DNA of 64,000 nt from Sanghuangporus weigelae. Lineage: Eukaryota; Basidiomycota; Agaricomycetes; Hymenochaetales; Hymenochaetaceae. Made by a program: the position numbers and the translations under genes. Shown here in pieces: positions 14,774-63,001 of the stretch. The notes beneath the pieces are model-generated. The model was not told where the DNA came from. It did no database searches and saw nothing but the letters and a program-made list of their open reading frames with translations. Position 1 is the stretch's first letter. Each line of letters opens with the position of its first letter. The stretch spans positions 1,984,001 to 2,048,000 of the forward strand of contig CP137320.1 in NCBI GenBank assembly GCA_033182465.1. The letters run 5' to 3'.

Positions 14774-17700
14774 ATGGACGCCGTCGTGCCCGGCTCACCC
14801 TCCTCGCTGAGCTCCGACAATTCTGACAGTGATGGCGTGAATACTTCCTCCGCAAAGATATATTTTGGAAAGTTTCAGACTCCAGAGAAGAAACTCGCAG
14901 CTCTCGTGGATTCGGCGGTCCCTTCGGTTCAAACGAACGCGCTAAATTCTAGTACTGTTGGATCGTCCTCGCTGCGTCGTTCCCCGCGACTATCCCTTTC
15001 CACTGCGTGTCAGGATATGGAAGACTCGGCAGTGGAACAAAGTGAACAAGAAGAGGATGACGAAGACGAACGAGAAGACAGTTCGCTAGAGAATAGAGGA
15101 AGTGAAATTCAGAAAGGGTCATGGCAGAATCCGCCCTTCCTAGAGTTTCTTCGAAAAGATGGTGTGTGATGACCCTGTGCCCTTTGCGTTGTACTCAAAT
15201 TCCTTTCAGAGCCTTCTTCCGCTATAGCTAACCGCATAATGCGAGCACACGACAACCCATCACCACCTCCAAAGTCACTTCGCCTGTCTTTGAGTTCGCG
15301 GTCATCCTCGAACTTGATCTCTCCAGGCGCACTTCCTTTTGCTCGTGGCTCTGCGGAAAGCTCTGATGATGCGGTCGAATTGCTCTTGGAATCCAACAAC
15401 GATTTTCCGAATAGCCTTACGCCACCTCCAGTCGCGTCCGACATGACACCTCTACCTACACCAACTATTCAACGACAATCGACACGTTCCCAAACACCTC
15501 GTGCCTTCAACGATGCCTCGTCTTCGCAAATCTTTCAGGGCGACGGTGAACCTGATCTCATATCATTCGATCGCTCAGTGCTTATTTCTTCTCCGGTTGG
15601 CATTGAGGTCCATTCGCCCTCACCGCAGCATGCGCAGCAACTAACAATAGATGATCTACTATTCTCTTCACCTCTACAAACTTCTGCACCAAACGAAGAC
15701 TCTCGGGATCAGGAGGGCAGCCCCACAATCACACCCGGATGCTCTCTTCTGTCAGACTTTACATCCAGGTCGCAGAGCAGTCCACAGCAGACACCGCCCC
15801 TTGACGCGCTGCGCGAGGCTGTAGACCAGCCTGGAGTCGGTGTACGAAAGGATGAGTTAGACGTAGCTCCTCAGACGCCTGACAGTCGAGGTGATCGTCC
15901 TGAACTGGATCAGGAAGTCGAGCAAGCGACTCCTACCATGCGCTTACCGGTTCCCGCATTGAGTCCTTCATTAAGGCGGAGTCCGAGGTTAAGTTTACTT
16001 CCTGATGTTCCTTTGCAAGCCACACCACGGCCATTCGCTTCGGGCAGATTATCTCGACCCAGAACCCCCAAAACGGAGGGATACCAAGGCCGTAAACGAC
16101 GCCGAGAAGGTTCTGGCAGACCAACCCGGATGTCTCTTACGCCCAGAAGAGGTGGCTGGCCTTCAGAGTCAGATGGGTCCGGCACAGAGACAGAGCTCTT
16201 TCAATCGCCCTCGAAGGGGAAACGCGACCGAAAGCGCATTAAGAAAACAACTGATTCATCGTCAGATGCGGTTGACTCGCGGTTGGCAGAGTCTCTGTCG
16301 CCAGGTTCTGCCCTTATTTTGACAAGTCTCATCTCCTCCGAAAGCTTGGCTTCTACGGCAAAGTCAAGCGAAGATGCGATTCCCCCAAGCACGCCGCGAA
16401 AGCACGTATCGACTTCTTCAACTGAAGATCATGACATGAAATCTCCTACGAGATCTTTATTGCCTCCTATATCGAATACTGTGCAGCGTCCACCTCCGGG
16501 CACATTCCGTCCTTCCGTCCTCACCCCGGCTCGCGGCAACCCAGCCAGACCTCACTTGGCACCACCTTCTCCTCTCAAGATGACTTTGACTCCGGCGTCT
16601 CGTGATGACCCCAATAGAACTCCAGCTCGACGCATCCCTGTTAAAGACGTGGACAACCACGCTTCTCTGAACCAGCCAAATGGAGTACAATCTTCAGCCC
16701 CGGTCTTTTCCCGACCTGTCTTCTCTCGCTCTGTGTTTTCCCGCCCTCCGGCGGACCATAGCACAGCGAAACAAGCACTACCACCGAAACAGGCATTGCC
16801 TTCGGAGCCTATATCTAAAGTATTTACTTTGCGTCCTCGAGACAGGCCATTTTCCCAAGCCTCCAGCTCAAGTCGTTCCAGGAGAGTTAGCGTGGAGCCT
16901 CCAGAGGTCAAAGCTCGTCTCGATGAGCAGAAGGAGGCGGTGGTCGTATCTGCTCCGAACGAGATGAATATGGACGCGTCAAGTTCATCTCAGTCTGAAT
17001 TTTCAGATCCTTCGACTAAACGAACTTCACCGCCTCCCGTGAAGACTCCGACGCCGCCGGATCCCCTTAAGCCAGCTCAGAAGGCCGAAAGTCGAATACC
17101 ACGACCAGGAGCGTCCACGAAGCCTCCATCAGCTCAGAGGTCGAAGTTGCCGATGCCATCTGCTAAAAGACCTAACGGACAGCTTGTGGCTCCTGCAGTG
17201 AGTTTTCTGGTCTATGTCTATCTTTCCTTCAACAAGAATTAATTGCCGATGTAGTCTTCTCGCCTTCCGCCACCAAAGAAGGCTCCTTTGTCAAGAGTAG
17301 CGCATCTGGGTAGCAACTCGGCGAGTAGTTCGGATGATTCTGGAAGCAGTCAATCCGGGCCTTCTGGTGCCGTTCCTCCCAGAAAAGCTTTAGCAAATGC
17401 CTTAGCAAAACGGAAACGGGACGCGGAGAAGCCAGCGGCTCCGCAGCAGATGATCAAGATGCGACAAGTTATACCGGGTATGCACGGTGGAATACCAAAG
17501 TCAGTGTCACAGAATACCACGGAGAAAGCACCTTCAGCTCAAGAATCCGAGCCGGAACCTGTGAAGCCTAATGCGCGACGGCCGATCATCAAGCCCCGTA
17601 GAGTCGTCAAGGGTACGTTGGGAGACTTCGAGCTCAAAACTGCTTCATCCAAGACTTTAGAGGCCATATCTGAGAAGCTCGCCAGAGAACGCGCGGAACA

Positions 17701-51969: not shown

Positions 51970-52403
51970 TGTAGCAAAAGACAAGTCAATGAATTGGTGT
52001 CTGAGACAGAAGAAAATGGGCGAGATAGGTAGCTAAGTAGGAGAAAGCCAGACAACCGAGGAGGATGCTATCCTTTGGCATTGTCGACCACTTCTTATAT
52101 CGTGATTTGAGGCCAAGGGCAGAGGAGTTTTCGTCTGCGGCTCAACTGTCGAATGATAAGCCATAAAGTTACCGAATCGTCGCGATAACCATCTATAGGG
52201 CCCTTAGCTCAGATCCATTTCAGTCTACACGAAATTCCAAATACGCGTCATCGCGCACATCGTCCTTACATTCCGGAAAGAAAGGCTAAGTCCGGAACTT
52301 TGTATATAAAAGAAAGCGAATACAGAAAGCTTGATAATATGCTCTAAAAGATCCCGCGCCGTGCATCGCTCTGACTTCACAGGGCACGAGGTCAAAGAAG
52401 TCA
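51970..52403. other. Intergenic, no gene seen
   Basis: About 430 bases. It should hold the promoter of the small Cys protein and the MAP1 3' end. A GGGCCCTTAGCTCAG word near 52198 looks like a tRNA start, but no matching acceptor or T-arm follows. Confidence 0.45.
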
Positions 52404-54337
52404 TTAAAGCTCTCGCTTCGTGCCTGCGGTGAGGACATCGACGCCCGTATCTGTTATCCTGTGAGTCATCGCCTCGTCATCACTGATCTGCTTCTCAAGC
52501 TTCTGAATGAAAATGGAAATACTTACAGTAAGGTTTCCTCAAATTGAGCGCTCCTTTTCCCGTCTGCCGTTGTACATGTCCAGTCATCTGGCCAATGCAG
52601 CCCATCCCAAGTTCCGAGATTGATCATCTGAAAACAGAAACAGTTAATTCCAGTTATCTAGTGTTATCAATGGAAGGGCGAAGCAACCGCCTACCGGCTC
52701 GATTGTGAACGTCTTCCAGAGTAGCGATATCAGCACTGGTGCTTCAAATTAATTGACAAGGCTCACCATTCCTGGCTTCATTGTCCCAATGGCTTTATTC
52801 TTGGCATAGTGCGGTATGTTCGGATTGCAATGGAATAGCTTGCTGACACCGTGTCCGGTGTACTGGCGAAAAACCGAGCACCCGTTGCGCTTAGCTATTG
52901 GCTCACTGAGGAACAAGATTCCAAACCAGTCAAAGATGAAGGACGATAAGGAGTTTGCGGCTGGGTTGTACTCACATAACTTTGCCAATGTCCCGGAATA
53001 AGGCGCCTGGTTTGCAGATTTTTATCGCTTCATCTAAGCACTCGCGAGTCGTTCGGATGAGCTTTTGGGACTCCTCATCGATGTCGCCAACAGCATAGGT
53101 TTCGTTCAAATCTCCGTGAAACCCTAAATTTTAGTACCAAATCTCCATTAGACAATGCCAGCCAGAAAACTGGATAAATATACATGCCGTCATAATAAAG
53201 ACTGACGTCTGAGGTGAAAAGTTTAAGCCAGCATGAAGAGAACTAGGGATAGGCTGAGCCAGACCAATGTTAATAATGTCTCCGTTCAAGAGAGGCCGAC
53301 GGTCTGGAATCCCATGGCAGATTACTTCGTTGACAGATCTAGGCCAATCGGGAGTAACGATGAGTTTAAATGGATACAACTGGCTTAAAGTGATGACATA
53401 CGTGCAGACGGATTTGGGAAATTGCCGATAGTTCAAGTCCGAAGGATAGGCGTCCCGCTCGATAGTGGCCTGATGCACTATTGCATCTATCTCGTCGGTG
53501 GTTATACCGGGCTTGATGGCTGCGCCAGCGATATCCAAAATCTCTCGGCCAAGCTGGTGGAACGGGAATTGAGCGAAAGTGAGGGGCTAGGGTGAACATA
53601 TCTGAGGTTAAGGGCACGTACCCTGCACACCGTTCGCATCTTCTCCTGCTCTTCTGGACTCAATATATGCGGTGGAGTGGCCAAGGCTAGCCTTTCGGAT
53701 TTTGATTCGCCACGCACTTGAGATTTCGGGGTAACAGGAGATATTAATATGCTGTGAAGCCACGAACAGAGTGGAGAAAAGACTTGACCCTACCATCATC
53801 AGCGTAGTCTGGTTTCGGAATATGGCTTGGAACAGTACGTCGGGGGGACAAGGGATACGCTGGCCGCAATGATCCAGAGAATTTGAAGTCGTCAAAAGGG
53901 TTCCCATCCTCTGGAACCCAGTTGAGTGATGAATATCATAGCACGGTCGAACAACATACCTGTCTTTGTTATTGATAAATTTACGATGTCATGGATGATT
54001 TTGTGTTGTTTCTTTTGCATGGGAATTACGTCCAGATCACTCTCTGAAGATAACGTGTTCTATGCTTACCCCTAGCATGCTATGCATCAGTACCTATATC
54101 AACCTTAACATCGTGAAACATACAATCATTTTTGAAGCATTGTTGGTTGCAAAAGAAGGAGCCCTGTATGCCGAGTCTAAATTAGACTGCATGAGTTTTC
54201 CTGAGAGTAATGCTGATCAGTATCATAGCAGATAATGCTTACTTACTGCAGGTCGGGCATTCCAAACGCGAAGGAGGGCTTCCATTGAGGCATTTGGAAC
54301 TTTGACAGGGTACACCAGATGTCTCCGTTGCGCCCAT
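52404..54337 (-). CDS. MAP1: Methionine aminopeptidase 1
   Basis: Cytosolic metalloprotease that removes the initiator methionine. ATG 54337 starts [19 protein letters not shown] with the type-1 zinc-finger leader: CQSSKC, ECPTCSK, then [15 protein letters not shown] and [12 protein letters not shown] linker with [20 protein letters not shown] precedes the pita-bread fold: [20 protein letters not shown] and [40 protein letters not shown] carries the conserved His, [19 protein letters not shown] carries the two metal Asp, and [20 protein letters not shown] carries the metal His. TFTIEPMIN and [18 protein letters not shown] carry the metal Glu residues. About nine exons. Its start codon lies at the left border of the duplicated NYN block and it diverges from NYN copy A, 365 bases away. 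Confidence 0.93.
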
Positions 54338-54702
54338 GATGGTACAAAGAATGTAAGTAGCGGAGTAAGTAAGGGTGGACACATCAAAATTCAGTATTAT
54401 TAGTTTAGTATTAGGAGAAGGCACGTGACTGATCACTTTCTTCGGCCTCCATGAATTCAAGTTTCAGGCTTGTACGTACGTGAACGTGTTGTGAAGAGTT
54501 GACTCGTGCGAGGATTGTGCCCTGTCCTGTCTTCGATACCTAACGACATGTACACGTGTAACCCTTGCTTGATCTCCATATCGCCACAGCTCAGCTCGTG
54601 CTTTTATTTCTTGGTTGGATTATCTCAGTATTGTCTCTACCGCAAGAGCCCACTGAGTGCTAGGTGAATCTGCGTTCTGGATACCCTTTGATCGACACAG
54701 AC
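54338..54702. promoter_or_regulatory. Bidirectional promoter of MAP1 and NYN copy A
   Basis: The 365 bases between two divergent start codons. CACGTGAC at 54422-54429, read on the other strand as GTCACGTG, is a perfect Cbf1-type RTCACRTG site. The word GTGAAGAGTTGAC lies near 54490-54502. Both recur in the region upstream of copy C. Confidence 0.6.
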
Positions 54703-56212
54703 ATGGAAGGACCAGCTGCCTCTGAAGTAGCCATCTTCTGGGACTATGGTAAACTTCTAGCTGGACTGCATACGTGTTATTCCTTAATTTCCCTCAACCT
54801 CTTTTTACTTTACAGAAAACTGTCATCCTCCTTCTGATGTCTCTGCACATAAGCTTGTAGATAAAATCCGTTGTTTAGCACAAACGCTTGGTCCTATAAA
54901 AACCTTCAAGGCCTACGTTGATTTGTCATTGGAATGCGCAAACCCGAGGTCCCTTGCTTTCCATTCTGATCTCCAGTCTTCAGGAGTGACTTTGGTGCAT
55001 TGCCCTCATAATGGCAAGAAAGACGTTGCAGACAAGATGATGATAGGTATATCAATTCAGCAGATGGCGAATAAGTACTGATGCCTCCTCTAGTGGATAT
55101 ACTTGTCTTTGCGGTAAACAACCATGGCCCGGCGACAATTGCCATTATCACCGTAGATCGAGACTTTGTGTACGCAGCCGCTGAGGCTACGAGGGCACAA
55201 AGTTGTGTTATTTACTCATAAAAGGGACGCAATTTTGAAGATGCAGGCAGACGTCGTTTTTGACTGGCAGAAGATCGTGATCGACGCAATCTCAAAGGAC
55301 GAGGGCATTCTGGTCGACTCAGATAATCCAATGAATCCTCCAAATGCATCCGTCCTTGCTGATGAAACGAAGTCAAGTGAACACCTCTCCCCAAGTATGT
55401 TGTTTCAATTGCAGTTTTCCATCAGAAACTGACTTGATGGTTATTGTTGATTAGACGACCATCTTAAGCCTGGGTCCACGAGCCCTTCGGCCTGCCTGAA
55501 AGCGGGTCCTGGGAAAAGCCGCGATTGTGCTACCCAAGATTCGACGGTGACACTAAGCAGTGTTTCGTCAAGCTCCCAATCGACGGATGGATCAACTTCA
55601 CATTCCATGTTCCCCGATCCAATTGGGCGATTTCGGACACTCATAGAATACTTCTATGATCAGTGGGCTCTGACTGGCGAAACTCGAATACGCTCTTCGA
55701 TTGTTGCCTCGGAATTGCTAAAGCGAGACTCAAAGGTCTATGAGAAAGCGGCTGTTCGCCAGATGAAACAGTACATCGAAGAGGCCAGACTGGCTAAAGT
55801 GATCATTACGCCCGGTATGAACAGCCAGGGAGATTGCTGGATCGAAATTCCGGCCAATCTTCCTGCATTTGTCGCTTTACGCGAGAAGAATACCGCTTCA
55901 GACACCATTTCTCCACCAAAGCCAAAAAAAGCGCCACGGTCCTCTTCACAGATGGTGACAGGCATTGTGGATCCCATGTTCAAGCCCCTTGTTGACCGCC
56001 TGCGAATGGAACAACCTTCGTATCAACTTTCAGATTCCACGCTCGGTCCTTTCTTTAGGACTGAACATCCCCATGTTTATAAACTGGCAAAAGTAGCAAC
56101 CCTTTCTCGGTATCTTCAGAAGGCGAAGGAGTGTGGTGTTGTGTACTTCCCAGGCCCGCACTCGTTAGGGCGTCAATGTGTCAGACTTGTACAGGCTCTT
56201 CGAAGGAAGTGA
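54703..56212 (+). pseudogene. NYN plus OST-HTH/LOTUS-like gene, copy A (frame broken in NYN)
   Basis: Same plan as copy C. Exon 1 (54703-54748, 46 bases) ends EVAIFWDY, exon 2 (54816-55046, 231 bases) ends DVADKMMI, and exon 3 starts at 55093. Exon sizes match C and D exactly. In exon 3 the NYN motif reads TVDRDF where C and D have TGDRDF. Next to it, 5 bases are missing relative to C, so the frame ends at a stop soon after. Beyond it the matching sequence resumes in another frame (HKVVLFTHKRD, MQADVVFDWQKIV). After an intron an intact C-terminal part follows (ORF to 56212): RFRTLIEYFYDQW, YIEEARLAKVIITPGM, PLVDRLRMEQPSYQL and FFRTEHPHVYKLA, the two OST-HTH-like repeats. The second half might still be expressed as a separate protein of about 220 residues. 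Confidence 0.75.
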
Positions 56213-56583
56213 TTCGTCGCAGGATTTGGATGGACCTATCTCTTGTTGATTCAGGTAAATTCAGTATGTATCGTTGATCTGATGATACCTCGCAAATGCT
56301 AACATGTGTACATACTTTACAATGATTGTCGAATATATTCAACCCAATTTCACGACCATTATAGATATTCCGCAACGTGACACATGGGAACCGATGAGTA
56401 GACTGGTATCCTATAAACATTTGGCTAGTGTACAGAGACGATGGACCTTGGTCAGAAATGTACTGTCTAATCTACATTTTCAATACAAGCGAGGCAGTAA
56501 ATAAACGGAAGACGAAAATTATACCATGCCTATCTTTACATTTGATCCTAATACGCATCGAAGCGCGTGCAAAGTCCTTGCTC
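56213..56583. other. Convergent 3' intergenic, A/B
   Basis: About 370 bases between the stops of A(+) and B(-). It is clearly similar to 60490-60824 between C and D. No ORF of note. Confidence 0.5.
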
Positions 56584-58330
56584 TCAACTGTTTGATCCAT
56601 GATGGACTATCCCACGATAAAATGGCATAAGCTCGGCCCATTCACTCCCTGGAGAACCACCACTTCCGATTCGAATGATGCCATTTCTCTCAGCTTTCTC
56701 AAGATAAGCCGAAAGACCGGAGACATTAGCACGCTTATACAAGTCTGGGTGTTGTGCTCTGAAAAACATTCCGAGTGCAGAATATAGAAGTCTATGAGAT
56801 GGGGTCTCGGTGCGAAGTCGACTGGTAAGAGGAGCGTAAACCCATTCGGTAGCTGGCTGGGAAACCGGTAGGGAATTTGTCTGTTTTGAGGGTGCGGCCA
56901 AAGAAGCGGTATTCTTCATCGGCTGCGCATCCTGAACCGGAGGATAAAGCACAGGATTTAATTCCGCCCAGCCACTCCCTCGCTATTAAGACCAGGGCTG
57001 ATGATCACCCCGACCTTTCTTGCAGCCTCAATATACGACTTCAGCTTTGTGACTCCTGCTATCTCAAAAACACGGGGGTTTCTCTTCCGGATCTCCACCG
57101 CTACCTCTGATGAGAGGATTCGGGTGGATCTATTAGCAACCCTTCGTTCAATGAAAAACGATATGAGTGTCTGAAATCGCTGTTGATTTTCTCGTATTGG
57201 AAGAGGTGCACTTTGTATTGAAGCGGCAGCTGGCACAGATGAGTTACCGGTGGAGCTGGTCTGACCGGCTTTGACGGCCGACTCAAATCCAATACACGGT
57301 TGATCGACAGCTGGCAATGTCATTCCACTCGATTCCTTCGGTAAACTCGTTGAAGAGGAACGACATCGGCGGTCGTCGACTAGAGCACGATTGGATGATT
57401 GGTAGGAGCTTCCCGTCGAGTCGGCCGTTATGCCTCCTTGTTCAACTTGGCGAGGCTCCATGCATCCTGTAGATGTGTCTTGAGGTGTCTCGAGTCGAAT
57501 ATGGGTCAAATCCGGAACACTTGAAATAGTATAGCCATGAAGTGCATTGCCTGAGGATGTAGCTTCATGTGTCGAAGTCGGTTTGGCTATGAGCAATGGC
57601 TCTGAGATCGGTACATCAGGCTCCATCTCGGATGTCAATGATGCCGTCTCAAATTCAGTAGATGCCTCCGACGATTCCAATAGGCGCGAAGAACGCCGAA
57701 ACGATGGATGGGACTCCCGTGCTGGTTCGAACGCGACAGAATTCTTCGCGGTCCTAGCAAGTGCGGCCCTGGTATTTTCAGAACAAGATAATTTGTTCAG
57801 CGCCATAGAATCACCATGGCACGTCGAAGATTCAGCGCCGTGTAATCCGAGATCCATCCCTGCTTCCCTGTCATAGTAACTGTACAGTGACGGAGACGAG
57901 TCGACACGAGAGTTGAAAGAGGAAGTTGGCCGATGTGGGTCGTGTAAACTTCTAATGAATGAATTGAATTCGGACTGAGACCGGGTTATAGAATGAACTT
58001 CATGCTTAGAGGGCCGATTCGGCTTGTTGCAGTTGGGTAATTGTGAATCCGGCAGACAGGTGAACTTGAGGTTGCAGAAACAGGAGGACCACTTGGCTTA
58101 GGAGCTGAAGCAGCTAAAGTGTCTGGTTTCTGGCTGTCAGAATCCACTGCAAAATCCATCGGATCGAGTACATCTGTCTGCCAGCCATAAAGCTCATCAG
58201 CCTGAACCTTCAGGCTTGCAAGGGAATTGGAAGTAAGAGGAATAACGATGACACGATATCCTTGCAGCTTCAGAATTGCGGCGGCACAAGCAAAGTCGCG
58301 ATCTCCAGTAATCAGAACGATGCACGTAGG
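56584..58330 (-). pseudogene. NYN plus OST-HTH/LOTUS-like gene, copy B (truncated pseudogene)
   Basis: Collinear with copy D but lacking D's exons 1 and 2 and the start of exon 3. Similarity begins abruptly at GPTCIVLITGDRDFACAAA next to 58330. The frame is broken at least twice relative to D. One break comes after SPVCRIHNYPTATSRIGPLS, in the low-complexity linker. The other is a one-base loss in the segment after GVIISPGLNSEG, where D reads GTGWVEMNPVLYPP. Between the breaks a 300-codon frame remains open (56958-57857), carrying the Ser/Thr-rich linker and first OST-HTH repeat (QRFQTLISFFIERR, KLKSYIEAARKVGVI). The second repeat (YAPLTSRLRTETPSHRLLYS, LGMFFRAQHPDLYKRANVSG) lies in the last frame. 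No promoter or start remains. Confidence 0.8.
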
Positions 58331-58700
58331 TCCGTTGAGTCCATAACGGTGAAAACAAGGCAGCGGAGTAGTTAGTTAGGACGCTGATGAATTCAATCAG
58401 AAAGGCACGTGACTGGTCACTTCCTTAAAAGGAATGTATTGCCTTATAAGTGTCCTGTATGCGTTTCTATGTGATGTTTAGTGTTTTGTGAAGAGTCGAC
58501 ACATCTCCATCGCGGGGGTGTGACGTGTCCTGGCTTTGGTACCAAATACACACGCGACTTCTCAGGTTACCCATCCTCCTGTGTCGAAGCCGAGCTGCAA
58601 TTGGGCACCTCTAGCTCCATTCCACTACATTGTGGGTGCAACTGAATGAATCTATATTCATGTTCATTTCATGCCAGCTGACTTTCTAATTGGCATAAAG
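58331..58700. promoter_or_regulatory. Upstream region of copy C, a copy of the MAP1/A promoter
   Basis: Starts with a relic of the MAP1 start (58331-58344 matches 54324-54337 at 12 of 14 bases). It then repeats landmarks of 54338-54702 in order: GCGGAGTA, the CACGTGAC Cbf1-type site at 58406-58413 inside a matching AGGCACGTGACTG..TCACTT context, and GTGAAGAGTCGAC. Confidence 0.65.
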
Positions 58701-60489
58701 ATGTCCGGATCCGTTGCATCTGAAGTTGCCATCTTCTGGGACTACGGTAAACATTCCTGAATGCCAGTACATGGTTTTTTATGCCCTAATTCCTATCCCA
58801 ATTTCGTAGAAAACTGTCGTCCTCCTTCTAATCTTCCCGGGGGCAAGCTTGTTGAAACTATCCAAAATCTGGATCAAATACCCGACCGCGTCAAAGTATT
58901 CAAGGCCTATGTTGATATAGCATTGGAATGCGTGAATCCACGATCCTATACGCTCCATTCCGAGCTTCAATCATCAGGTGTAACATTGGTACATTGTCCT
59001 CATAATGGAAAGAAAGATGTTGCGGACAAGATGATGATAGGTGCGCAATAATACGATTTGTGAATAACTGCTGACGTTGTCTTCAGTGGACATGTTTGCC
59101 TTTGCATTAGACAACGATACACCGACGACAATTGCCATTATCACCGGAGACAGAGATTTTGCGTACGCAGTCGCTGTTCTGAGGCTGCGAGGTTACAAAG
59201 TCGTGATAATCTCTCCCCATGCGGGACATGCGAGTTTGAAGATGCAGGCAGACGCCCTGTATGACTGGCAGAAGATCATGAATGATGCGATCTCCACGGA
59301 AGATATTGCTGAGAATTCCGTTCTCTCAATGAATTCGCCGAAGACACATGTGTCTAATAATGCTACGGATGTGGAAAATTGGGGACATTCAAAGCCATCA
59401 GCTTCTCAAGATCTCTCGAAGTCGATACTTTGCAGTTGGTCGGCTACACCACCATTAAAATCAGCCAAAAGCTCAGAGTCTATTCCGACAAGAATCCGTG
59501 CTCACGATTTGTCGATACCGAGTGCAAAATCATGCTCTACTCCTCCTATTTTATTGAATAAGCCCGGGTGCAGTTACACAAGTAAGTCTTCACTACCAAC
59601 AGGTCTTGTGGAGATGAACTAACTGTTTCCAGCCAACTGTCATGACTCTGCCAGCTCACCAGACAGTGGAGATGAAGTTGGACAATGCGATGAAGAAAAA
59701 CGCCATTCAGACAAGTTCTTCGATGGTATCCCGTCTCTATCGGATGCATGGGATGTTCACTCTGTTAAAGACGACATCAATGACGATCATGATTCAATGT
59801 CGGAAACTTCAAGTAGCATTCTGTCAGACTCGCAATCAGCGGGCATATCAGTATTATTTCCTACAAACTCTGGAATGATCGAGCTCTCGTCAATACGTCG
59901 ATTTGAGACTCTCATAGAATACTTCTATGATCAGTGGGTTGTGTCGGACTCAACTACATTCCGTTCCTCGATTGTCGCCTCGGAAATGCTAAAGCAAGAT
60001 CCAGCAGTTTACGAGAAAGCTGGCGTGTGCAAAATGAAGCAATACATCGAAGAGGCTAGGCAAGCCAACGTGATCGTTCCGCCCGCTATGGACAGCGAGG
60101 GAGATTGGTGGATTGAAATAAATGACGCTCTGTATTCGATTTTCGGAGCGTACAGGATGGACACCCTACCTTCATCAGACCCAGAGGGGAGCCACCACTC
60201 AGCAGAAAACGCGATAGTCATCGTGGATCCCGTGTACGAGCCTCTTATTGACCGCCTGCGAATGGAACCCTCATACCAGCTGTTGTATTCCACGCTCGGA
60301 GTATTCTTCAAGCGCGAGCATCCATACCTTTACGAGCAAGCTGGTGTGCGAACGCTCTCTCAATACCTTGGAAAGGCTGAAGAGCAGGGCATCGTTATCC
60401 TGCTGAGTGATGACTGGGCTGGAAGCCAACGGGTTGAGCTCGTATCAGCCCTCCAAGAGTACGACTCCATCACATGTGCTTGGTATTGA
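58701..60489 (+). CDS. NYN-domain plus tandem OST-HTH/LOTUS-like protein, copy C (intact)
   Basis: Probable RNA-binding endonuclease of the MARF1/limkain-like plan. Four exons (58701-58746, 58810-59040, 59087-59581, 59633-60489) join to 1,629 bases and 542 residues. NYN domain, residues about 6-160: EVAIFWDYENCRPPSN with the first Asp, VKVFKAYVDIALE, LVHCPHNGKKDVADKMMI with two acidic residues, and IAIITGDRDFAYAVAVLRLR with the last Asp pair. A Ser-rich linker of about 170 residues follows. OST-HTH-like repeat 1: RFETLIEYFYDQWVV, SSIVASEMLKQDPAVYEKAG and MKQYIEEARQANVIV. Repeat 2: YEPLIDRLRMEPSYQLLYST, LGVFFKREHPYLYEQAGV and LSQYLGKAEEQGIVI. All acidic NYN positions are kept. No membrane or signal sequence. 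RNA binding and cleavage are inferred from the family, and the target is unknown. Confidence 0.82.
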
Positions 60490-60824
60490 CTATGTTCAAG
60501 TTGGTTTCATTCTGTATTATACTTTCTGGTGTACAAGGTTGTGAGCCACAAATACGAACGTGCATGCATATTCAAAAATAGCTGTCATTGACATTGAATC
60601 CAGTGCATTGATAACCTGGATTAACGCAACGTGTCGCATGGGAACTAATGAATAAACATTATCCTATAAACGCTTCGCTAGTGTACATAGCGCTATGGAC
60701 TTGATCAGAAATGTACCGCCTGATCTACGGTTTGAATACAAGTGCGGCAGTAAATGAACGAAAACCGGAAATATTACCATACCTATCTTTACATTTGAAC
60801 CGAAACGCGTGGAAAGTCCTTGCT
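60490..60824. other. Convergent 3' intergenic, C/D
   Basis: About 335 bases between the stops of C(+) and D(-), similar to 56213-56583. The two mRNAs could overlap at their 3' ends. Confidence 0.5.
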
Positions 60825-63001
60825 CTAGCTGTTTGATCCATGGACTATAACACGATAAGCTGGCATAAGCTCCGCCCATTCACTCCCTGGAGAACCACCA
60901 CTTCCGATTCGAATGATGCCATTTCTCTCAGCTTTCTCAAGATAAGCTGAAAGACCGGAGACATTAGCACGCTTATACAAATCTGGATGTTGTGCTCTGA
61001 AAAACGTCCCGAGTATAGAATATAGAAGTCTATGAGATGGGATCTCAGCGCGAAGTTGACTGGTAAGAGGAGCATAAATCCATTCGGCAGCTGGCTGTGA
61101 AGCTTGTGAGGAGCTCGACTGCTTCGAGGGAGTAGCCGGGGAAGCGGCACTCTTCGTCGATTGTGTATCTTCTTGGACTGGAGGATAAAGTACAGGATTC
61201 ATTTCCACCCAACCAGTCCCATCGCTGTTAAGACCAGGTCCGATGATCACCCCAGCCTGCCTTGCCGCTTCAATATACGACTTCAGCTTCTTTACTCCTG
61301 CCATCTGATAAACCCGAGGGTTTTTCTTCCGAAGCTGCACCGCTACCTCTGATGAGATGGCCCGGGTGGATTTATCGGTAGTCCTTCGTTCAATGAAAAA
61401 CGATATGAGCGCCTGGAATCGCTGTTGATCTTCTCGTGTCGGAAGAAGTGCATTTTGTATGGACGCGTCAGATTGCGCAGGAGAGTTACAAGAGGAGCCG
61501 GTCTGCCCTGTTTTGAGGGCCGATTCGAAACTACTGCACGGCTGATCGACAGTTGGCAATGCTATTCCACCCGATTCCTTCGATAAGCTTATTGAAGAGA
61601 AATGACCTCGACTCTCGTCGATCGAGGCAAGATCGGAGAATTTGCATGGAAATCCTATCGAGTCGGCTACTATATCTCCCTTCTCAACTTGACAAGGATC
61701 AAGATGACCGGTGGATGCATCTTGCAGTGCTTCGACTCGAATATGGGTTGAACTCGGAGCACTTGAAGTAGCGTCGTTGCGAAGGGCATTATTCGACGAT
61801 ATAGCTTCATGTGACGAGAGAGTAGTTGATTTGACTATAAGCGATGGCTCTGAAGTCGATACATCGGATTCGATTTCGGATATCCATGACGCCGTCTCGA
61901 ATTCAGTAGATGTCTCCGGTGATCCTAATACATGCGAAGAAAACTGAAATGATGGATGAGGCTCTCCTGCTGTTTCGGGTGTGACAGAATTCTTCGTAAC
62001 CTCCTCAGAGACGGCCTTATTATTTGCGGAACGAGACGACTCGTTCAGCGCTATTATATCTCTCCGACACGTCGAAGTTTCAGAGCAATGTGATCCAAAA
62101 TCTATCCCTGCTTCCCTGTCATACCGACTGCTTAATGAAGGAGACAGGTAAACATGAGGCTTGAGACAGGGAGAGGGCCGAAGTGAGTTTCGCGAACTCG
62201 ACTGGAGGGAATTGAATTCGGACTGTGGCCGGGATGTAGGGAGAACTTCACTCCTTAACGCAGCGATTCGAGCTGTTGCATTTGGATAAATGTCCATTTG
62301 GCAGACTGACGAACTTGGAGCTGCAGAAACAAGAGGGCCGCTCGGCTCAGAAGCTGAAGCAGCGAAAGTTTTTGATATCGTGTTGCCGGTGTCGACCACA
62401 GAGTCCATAGAATCGAGTATATCCGTCTGCCAATCATAAAGTTCATCGGCCTGAACCTTCAGACTCGTATGGGCGTTGGAAGCAGGAGAAATGGCAATGA
62501 TACGATATCCTCGTAGCTTAAGAATCGCAGCAGCGTAAGCAAAGTCCCGATCACCAGTGATAAGAACAATACACGCAGGGGCAGGCCTGTCTATCGCAAA
62601 GGCGAGCATATCCACTAGAGGAAATCGATATCAATAATTGGATTTCGACTTCAAGAAAAATGGAGCACCTATCATCATTTTATCCGCGACATCCTTTTTC
62701 CCGTTATGAGGACAATGGACAAGAGAAAGTCCAGATGACTGCAAATCGGAATGAAAGCTTATAGATCTTGAATACGCGCAATCGACAGACAAATCAATGT
62801 AAGCTCTGAAAGTTGTTATACTTCCGTAGCCTTGAACGAGACGTCGTATGTTGTAAACGACTTTGTTGCCGGATATATTACTAGAAGGGCGACAGTTCTC
62901 TGAAATGAAGACGAGAGCTAAGTATATAGGGCGACTTGAACACATAACCACTCACCGAAGTCCCAGAAGATAGCAGTTTGGCTTGGGCTTGTCGGAAGCA
63001 T
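60825..63001 (-). CDS. NYN-domain plus tandem OST-HTH/LOTUS-like protein, copy D (intact)
   Basis: Second intact member, of the B/D subtype. Three exons (62956-63001, 62669-62899, 60825-62614) join to 2,067 bases and 688 residues. NYN: QTAIFWDFENCRPSSN, TFRAYIDLSVDCAY, LVHCPHNGKKDVADKMMI and CIVLITGDRDFAYAAAILKL, with all acidic positions kept. A long Ser/Thr/Glu-rich linker of about 270 residues follows, longer than in C. OST-HTH-like repeat 1: QRFQALISFFIERRT, AISSEVAVQLRKKNPRVYQM and KLKSYIEAARQAGVIIGPGL. Repeat 2: YAPLTSQLRAEIPSHRLLYS, LGTFFRAQHPDLYKRANVSG and SAYLEKAERNGIIRIGSGG, ending HGSNS. Exons 1 and 2 match those of A and C in length, so the two subtypes share one ancestor. It converges on copy C. 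Confidence 0.82.

Follow-up and report, generated by a model that had tools for sequence, protein, structure and literature searches.

A tandemly duplicated convergent pair of genes for NYN-domain proteins with C-terminal winged helices in Sanghuangporus weigelae

Results

The stretch of 64,000 nucleotides analyzed here (the window) covers positions 1984001 to 2048000 of contig C3 of the Sanghuangporus weigelae genome (33.87 Mb, 13 contigs) and contains a cluster of four related genes, A to D, that combine an NYN nuclease domain with C-terminal winged helices. A sequence-only reading of this DNA had described four genes in alternating orientation (A+, B-, C+, D-) over 54703-63001. The coordinates (ATG of A at 54703, ATG of D at 63001), the strands, and the motifs WDYEN/WDFEN, KKDVADKMM, and TGDRDF were all found, and the cluster is real. 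The four genes and their alternating strands stand, and the arrangement is refined to one convergent pair duplicated in tandem instead of four independent copies (Table 1).

Table 1 Features of the NYN gene cluster and related loci (window positions unless a contig is given)
Feature	Position	Strand	Basis or remark
Gene C, intact, 542 aa, four exons	58701..60489; exons 58701-58746, 58810-59040, 59087-59581, 59633-60489	+	Uninterrupted frame
Gene D, intact, 688 aa, three exons	60825..63001; exons 63001-62956, 62899-62669, 62614-60825	-	Intact frame
Gene A, decayed	54703..56212; exons 54703-54748, 54816-55046, 55094 onward	+	
Gene B, decayed	56584..58330	-	First half of NYN missing (starts in the ITGDRDF half)
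NYN domain of C, aa 9-150	58725..59259	+	D14, D88, D94, D114, D116; Pfam E 6.7e-22
Two winged helices of C	59896..60453 (~59896-60120, ~60232-60453)	+	Repeat alignment, AlphaFold
Two winged helices of D	60856..61424 (~61424-61200, ~61079-60856)	-	Placed by alignment with C
Paralogue E, intact, 392 aa	Contig C9 663872-665250	-	One intron besides the two shared with the cluster
Tandem repeat unit, ~4 kb	First copy 54323..58330, second 58330-62579		Left end at first codons of MetAP1-like gene, right end inside NYN of B
Junction	58330..58344	-	12 of 15 bases match start of MetAP1-like gene (54323-54337); abuts end of B-D similarity
Upstream element AAGGCACGTGACTGNTCACTT, 21 bases	54418..54438, repeated 58402-58422	+	Upstream of A and C; 2 matches
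High-identity tract	56389..56788 vs 60643-61026		75-95%; A-side spacer 44-58%; candidate B-D gene-conversion tract
MetAP1-like gene (peptidase M24)	52360..54339, ends approximate	-	Pfam M24 match in one exon (E 4.4e-6); sequence judged by eye

Genes C and D are intact, and A and B are broken, in line with the two decayed copies of the sequence-only reading. Gene A is open through exons 1 and 2 and most of exon 3 and carries at least one frame-breaking deletion, a short one relative to C near 55171-55181; its TGDRDF motif is altered to TVDRDF, after which the frame is lost. Its C-terminal winged helices are open again at approximately 55625-56200, with a probable intron, judged by eye, between the frame break and this part, and a search with the C-terminal region of C gave 54% identity over query residues 5-221. 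Gene B lacks the first three of the five NYN aspartates. Its frame is interrupted at least twice (near 58098 and 56955), and its linker and two winged helices are still recognizable. The count of two decayed copies out of four is partly a result of the duplication junction described below, which truncates B. The linker noted earlier as Ser-rich is indeed so, with 21% Ser in C and 20% in D.

The two introns within the NYN domain interrupt A, C, and D at identical codons; both positions recur in a paralogue on another contig, gene E, as judged from exon lengths and the NYN alignment (A3). Paralogue E encodes an NYN domain, a Pro/Ala-rich linker, and a single putative winged-helix repeat, and it may be nearer the ancestral form. 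Alignment and hhalign (probability 91.9%, P 7e-7) identify its C-terminal stretch as a homologue of the winged-helix repeats in the cluster. A genome search with the C-terminal region of C at E<=10 returned the four cluster copies and missed E, and the NYN family search of the genome returned only C, D, and E. These searches therefore undercount, and the number of paralogues is a lower bound.

The NYN assignment was confirmed with the spliced proteins, for which the Pfam NYN profile (PF01936) gave E values of 6.7e-22 for C, 1.4e-23 for D, and 5.6e-23 for E (79.0, 84.4, and 82.5 bits, all above the curated cutoff of 24.2 bits). The only PDB sequences matching the NYN domain of C at E<=1 were those of the MARF1 NYN domain, 6fdl (2.4e-10) and 5yaa (8.5e-10). 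According to the excerpt of PMC6294520, this domain is a metal-dependent endoribonuclease, and the acidic patch of human MARF1 consists of Asp358, Asp426, Asp427, and Asp452. Five aspartates (D14, D88, D94, D114, and D116 in C numbering), among them those of WDxEN, VAD, and TGD, do not vary between C, D, and E, and three of the four patch residues (Asp358, Asp426, and Asp452) are matched in all three proteins by a mapping derived from the PDB alignment. D94, six residues on from D88, is common to two bacterial NYN proteins.

The eight C-terminal repeats of the window, two per gene, align with seven invariant columns. AlphaFold modeled a single domain from these repeats with a pLDDT of 91.7 and a pTM of 0.81, and the tandem model contains two winged helices (pLDDT 74.5, pTM 0.50). 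In the single domain, the elements follow the order H-E-H-short helix-H-E-E, and a long loop precedes the last main helix; by eye, this topology fits OST-HTH. Of the earlier claim of two C-terminal OST-HTH/LOTUS-like repeats, the two winged helices are thus upheld by structure prediction; the OST-HTH identity lacks a profile match and is weighed below.

In a self-comparison of the window, 54691-55302 matches 58689-59303, and 55620-58330 matches 59891-62579. Four independent insertions were rejected because a tandem repeat unit was found instead, and the simplest reading of the sequence is a tandem duplication of a segment comprising the start of the MetAP1-like gene, A, and B. The MetAP1-like gene is divergent from A, and its first exon (31 aa) taken alone matched no Pfam family. 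The junction pattern has two matches in the window, one of which is the MetAP1-like gene itself; since 1.42 matches are expected by chance anywhere, it is the exact placement that constitutes the evidence. The position of the junction favors, on parsimony, a truncation of B at birth. The element AAGGCACGTGACTGNTCACTT occurred in none of 100 shuffles, the pattern having been picked from its two copies. It is conserved upstream of both A and C amid diverged promoter sequence and is a candidate promoter element held in common with the divergent MetAP1-like gene.

Selection was explored through the ratio of nonsynonymous to synonymous divergence (Ka/Ks). This was 0.13 for the NYN domains of C and D (Ks 2.6, near saturation), 0.27 for A and C overall, and 0.47 for B and D overall (0.56 in the linker, 0.23 in the first winged helix, HTH1, and 0.22 in the second, HTH2). 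No ratio above 1 was measurable in any region compared; Ks was saturated for a number of gene pairs and regions, among them two of the three linker comparisons (C-D and A-C), from which no ratio was obtainable. The linkers of C and D share 26% identity versus 58% for their NYN domains, a divergence of the kind that a weakly constrained, disordered region would show. Polarized amino acid changes in A and C, respectively, numbered 8:12 in NYN, 7:7 in HTH1, and 10:3 in HTH2; for B and D, they numbered 4:7 in HTH1, 1:2 in HTH2, and, with E as the outgroup, 7:4 in the second half of NYN. An A:C count for that half has no meaning, E having taken the place of A there. The B:D counts leave room for a later deletion as the cause of the truncation of B. 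The broken copy is ahead in two of these six comparisons and no faster than its intact partner in the other four, so the breakage of A and B looks recent.

Discussion

With the domains, gene structure, duplication, and decay of the cluster established, we infer RNase activity, RNA targeting, and a role in mRNA decay for C and D. We lean toward the view that the two, now diverged, probably function as MARF1/DNE1-type endoribonucleases and descend from a convergent pair that was duplicated in tandem and whose other members, A and B, later lost function. On this analysis, the most likely role of the cluster would be MARF1/DNE1-like cleavage of selected RNAs. The conserved aspartates of the NYN domain would, by homology, hold a metal ion and cut single-stranded RNA, and a flexible Ser-rich arm would carry the two winged helices, whose most likely task would be to select the RNA or a partner from the decay machinery. 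An ancient split into A/C-type and B/D-type genes would have given the original pair. Its tandem duplication would have brought the beginning of the MetAP1-like gene up against the middle of a B/D-type NYN domain, yielding the order A-B-C-D, with A and B later losing function and C and D remaining intact.

Several observations weigh against parts of this account. The fourth residue of the MARF1 patch, Asp427, is unmatched, being Lys in C and D and Met in E. Ks is 1.34 for A/C versus 0.52 for B/D, which a single duplication explains only if gene conversion or a second event is added. At E<=10, PF12872, the OST-HTH profile, had no match in the four C-terminal pieces, the spliced proteins C, D, and E, or the whole genome, in searches whose HMMER filters discard most matches above approximately 0.1. 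Foldseek with the single domain listed no LOTUS-named chain among the best 50 of 1000 matches, which were mainly MarR, ArsR, and FOXO winged helices. With the tandem model, the TDRD7 LOTUS domain came 18th (E 0.3, poor superposition), and STK19 and ESCRT-II were listed first.

Synonymous divergence is larger for A/C (p = 2.5e-10), and at approximately 56389 the identity jumps to a B-D peak that reaches 95% and stands above the remainder of the duplicated unit; these two findings are suggestive of a second event or of gene conversion between B and D. Within B/D, the 3' excess is weak (p = 0.044).

The profile and fold searches bear on whether the winged helices are LOTUS domains. These helices could instead belong to another DNA- or protein-binding family, with the nuclease serving a DNA- or chromatin-linked process or acting on nascent transcripts, which we consider rather unlikely. 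The lack of a PF12872 match and the Foldseek lists speak for such an origin, as does part of the comparison with bacteria. In the phylum of Variovorax G001, 70 of 299 genomes carried OST-HTH at E<=0.001; from these 299 genomes, 30 loci were taken, and 28 OST-HTH domains were retained once two wrongly cut loci (L108 and L116) were removed. Aligned with these 28 by hhalign, the fungal core lay in register, not significantly. Column shuffles reached the observed score in 7/100, 4/60, and 6/60 cases under three settings for the repeats with E, in 8/100, 3/60, and 52/60 for the HTH1 set, in 45/100, 27/60, and 4/60 for the HTH2 set, and in 12/100, 6/60, and 36/60 for HTH1 with E. With all 30 loci, the P values were 0.15 and 0.18. 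Moreover, the fungal profile gave 57 weak matches among 2389 bacterial frames, none of them to the 28 OST-HTH proteins.

Other comparisons argue for LOTUS membership. In domain order (NYN, linker, two winged helices), the fungal proteins agree with Arabidopsis DNE1, and the predicted topology fits OST-HTH. Against 12 bacterial OST-HTH domains, the profile comparison gave a P of 0.025 over 48 columns, and against 106 domains of a second bacterial type, 72 columns were in register with a P of 0.039; here the score was reached by 2 of 100 shuffles for the repeats with E, 7 of 100 for the eight window repeats without it, 34 of 100 for HTH1, and 10 of 100 for HTH2. NYN plus OST-HTH proteins of this second type, which make up 112 of the 2389 frames, account for 15 of the 57 weak matches, and all 15 fall on the OST-HTH region, each being weak (domain E 2.7 or worse) and related to the others. 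The bacterial OST-HTH profile itself matched nine PDB sequences at E<=10; two bacterial ones, 2kpm and 2kzv, were strong matches, and animal LOTUS chains were absent, so a profile miss says little; the repeat protein 8ga7 reached E 6e-5 with no single stretch passing. NCBIfam gave no useful match. We conclude that the C-terminal domains are winged helices whose membership in the LOTUS family is likely, OST-HTH/LOTUS being a plausible and still provisional label. The MARF1-like pairing proposed earlier is accordingly well supported in its nuclease part by the Pfam and PDB matches, and its LOTUS part leans on the winged-helix fold, the domain order, and borderline profiles. Excerpts of two papers state that fungi have LOTUS domains, citing work from 2010 (PMC5458760, PMC6168497). 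If the winged helices are LOTUS domains, the family would extend to a form that its present profile misses.

The cluster could also reflect plain birth and death of a redundant pair without special selection, C and D being mutually redundant leftovers. One member of each pair is broken, and the broken copy is mostly no faster than its partner, as this would have it. However, the low Ka/Ks of the NYN domains and the long retention of both subtypes, with Ks between C and D close to or past saturation, point to a separate role for each subtype, and we regard redundancy as fairly unlikely.

The sequence-only reading had taken expansion, decay, and linker change as signs of a gene under conflict, for example, RNA-level defense or self/non-self recognition. 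Such defense could be directed against mobile elements or viruses, a spore-killing system is a further form that the conflict could take, and copies would turn over in an arms race. The tandem expansion and the loss of half of the copies are real, the linker has changed fast, and two limkain-b1-type NYN proteins act as killers in the PK3 pollen killer of Arabidopsis (excerpt of PMC11761171), which makes such a role a little less remote. The absence of any measurable Ka/Ks above 1 speaks against it, as does the single further paralogue found in the genome, a lower bound. The neighbors with a nameable family are of housekeeping type: the M24 peptidase; a CLASP/TOG-like protein at 40.6-46.8 kb of the window; and, outside it, a sulfate permease, a YebC/TACO1 protein (slightly below its cutoff), a WD40 protein, and a short-chain dehydrogenase. 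Five of the ten open reading frames tested had no match. A conflict or drive role is thus possible, unsupported, and in our judgment quite improbable. Highly improbable is a fungal killer or self-recognition locus, a parallel to the NYN killers of PK3, in which the limkain-b1-type NYN nucleases would damage RNA in cells without the locus and winged-helix-only relatives such as truncated B would once have been the protective partner. The polarized changes in the winged helices of B, no more numerous than those of D, would fit a truncated protein that stayed functional for a time.

The preferred reading, of C and D as MARF1/DNE1-type endoribonucleases, can be set beside known systems. DNE1, described in the excerpt of PMC10226599 as an NYN domain with two C-terminal LOTUS domains, shares with C and D the N-terminal nuclease and the two C-terminal winged helices, whereas the fungal winged helices have no OST-HTH profile match and the fungal genes stand in a tandem array. 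MARF1/limkain-b1 is the best PDB match for the fungal NYN domain, which by the mapping above keeps three of the four residues of the MARF1 acidic patch; in contrast, Pfam showed no RRM in C or D. Bacterial NYN (DUF88/LabA-like) plus OST-HTH proteins likewise place a winged helix after the NYN domain. Their NYN profile matches the fungal one with 96% probability, a positive control for equally small alignments, and the winged helices are borderline in register, but both bacterial proteins scanned match PF12872 and have a single such domain after a short linker. The PK3 killers KPOK3A and KPOK3C have a limkain-b1-type NYN domain, with HEAT motifs in KPOK3C, and lie, as here, in a locus of partly related genes. 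The excerpt mentions no winged helices for either protein, and killing was shown for PK3, which sets it apart.

A doubled pair of genes on the MARF1/DNE1 plan is interesting and not unprecedented. As a fungal version of this plan whose duplication history is clear and whose two intact members have diverged, it allows direct tests of whether a fungal NYN protein cleaves RNA and of what its winged helices do. Among the papers listed by the literature searches, none had a title or abstract opening on a fungal NYN gene cluster. Searches by tblastn with the NYN profile (A3) found no relatives in genome_contigs (38 pattern stretches) or viral_contigs (22 stretches), and the C-terminal profile (A1) found none in viral_contigs (56 stretches). 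The NYN domain of E gave three weak bacterial matches in plasmids, and the two inspected carry NYN plus OST-HTH. With one such plasmid protein as the query, 354 plasmid records were recovered, and an alignment (A4) led to 189 related stretches in genome_contigs, 80 of them retained for use. The NYN plus OST-HTH gene of a Polaromonas plasmid (L020) lies near an N-6 DNA methylase gene and that of a Xanthomonas plasmid (L021) near restriction endonuclease and helicase genes, neighborhoods reminiscent of defense islands.

Elsewhere in the window, a tRNA-Ser (GGA) gene lies at 15377-15466 on the minus strand. Short introns and the 57 matches of the whole genome to DUF6533 (PF20151), a family that is expanded in mushroom-forming fungi, are as expected of an agaricomycete.

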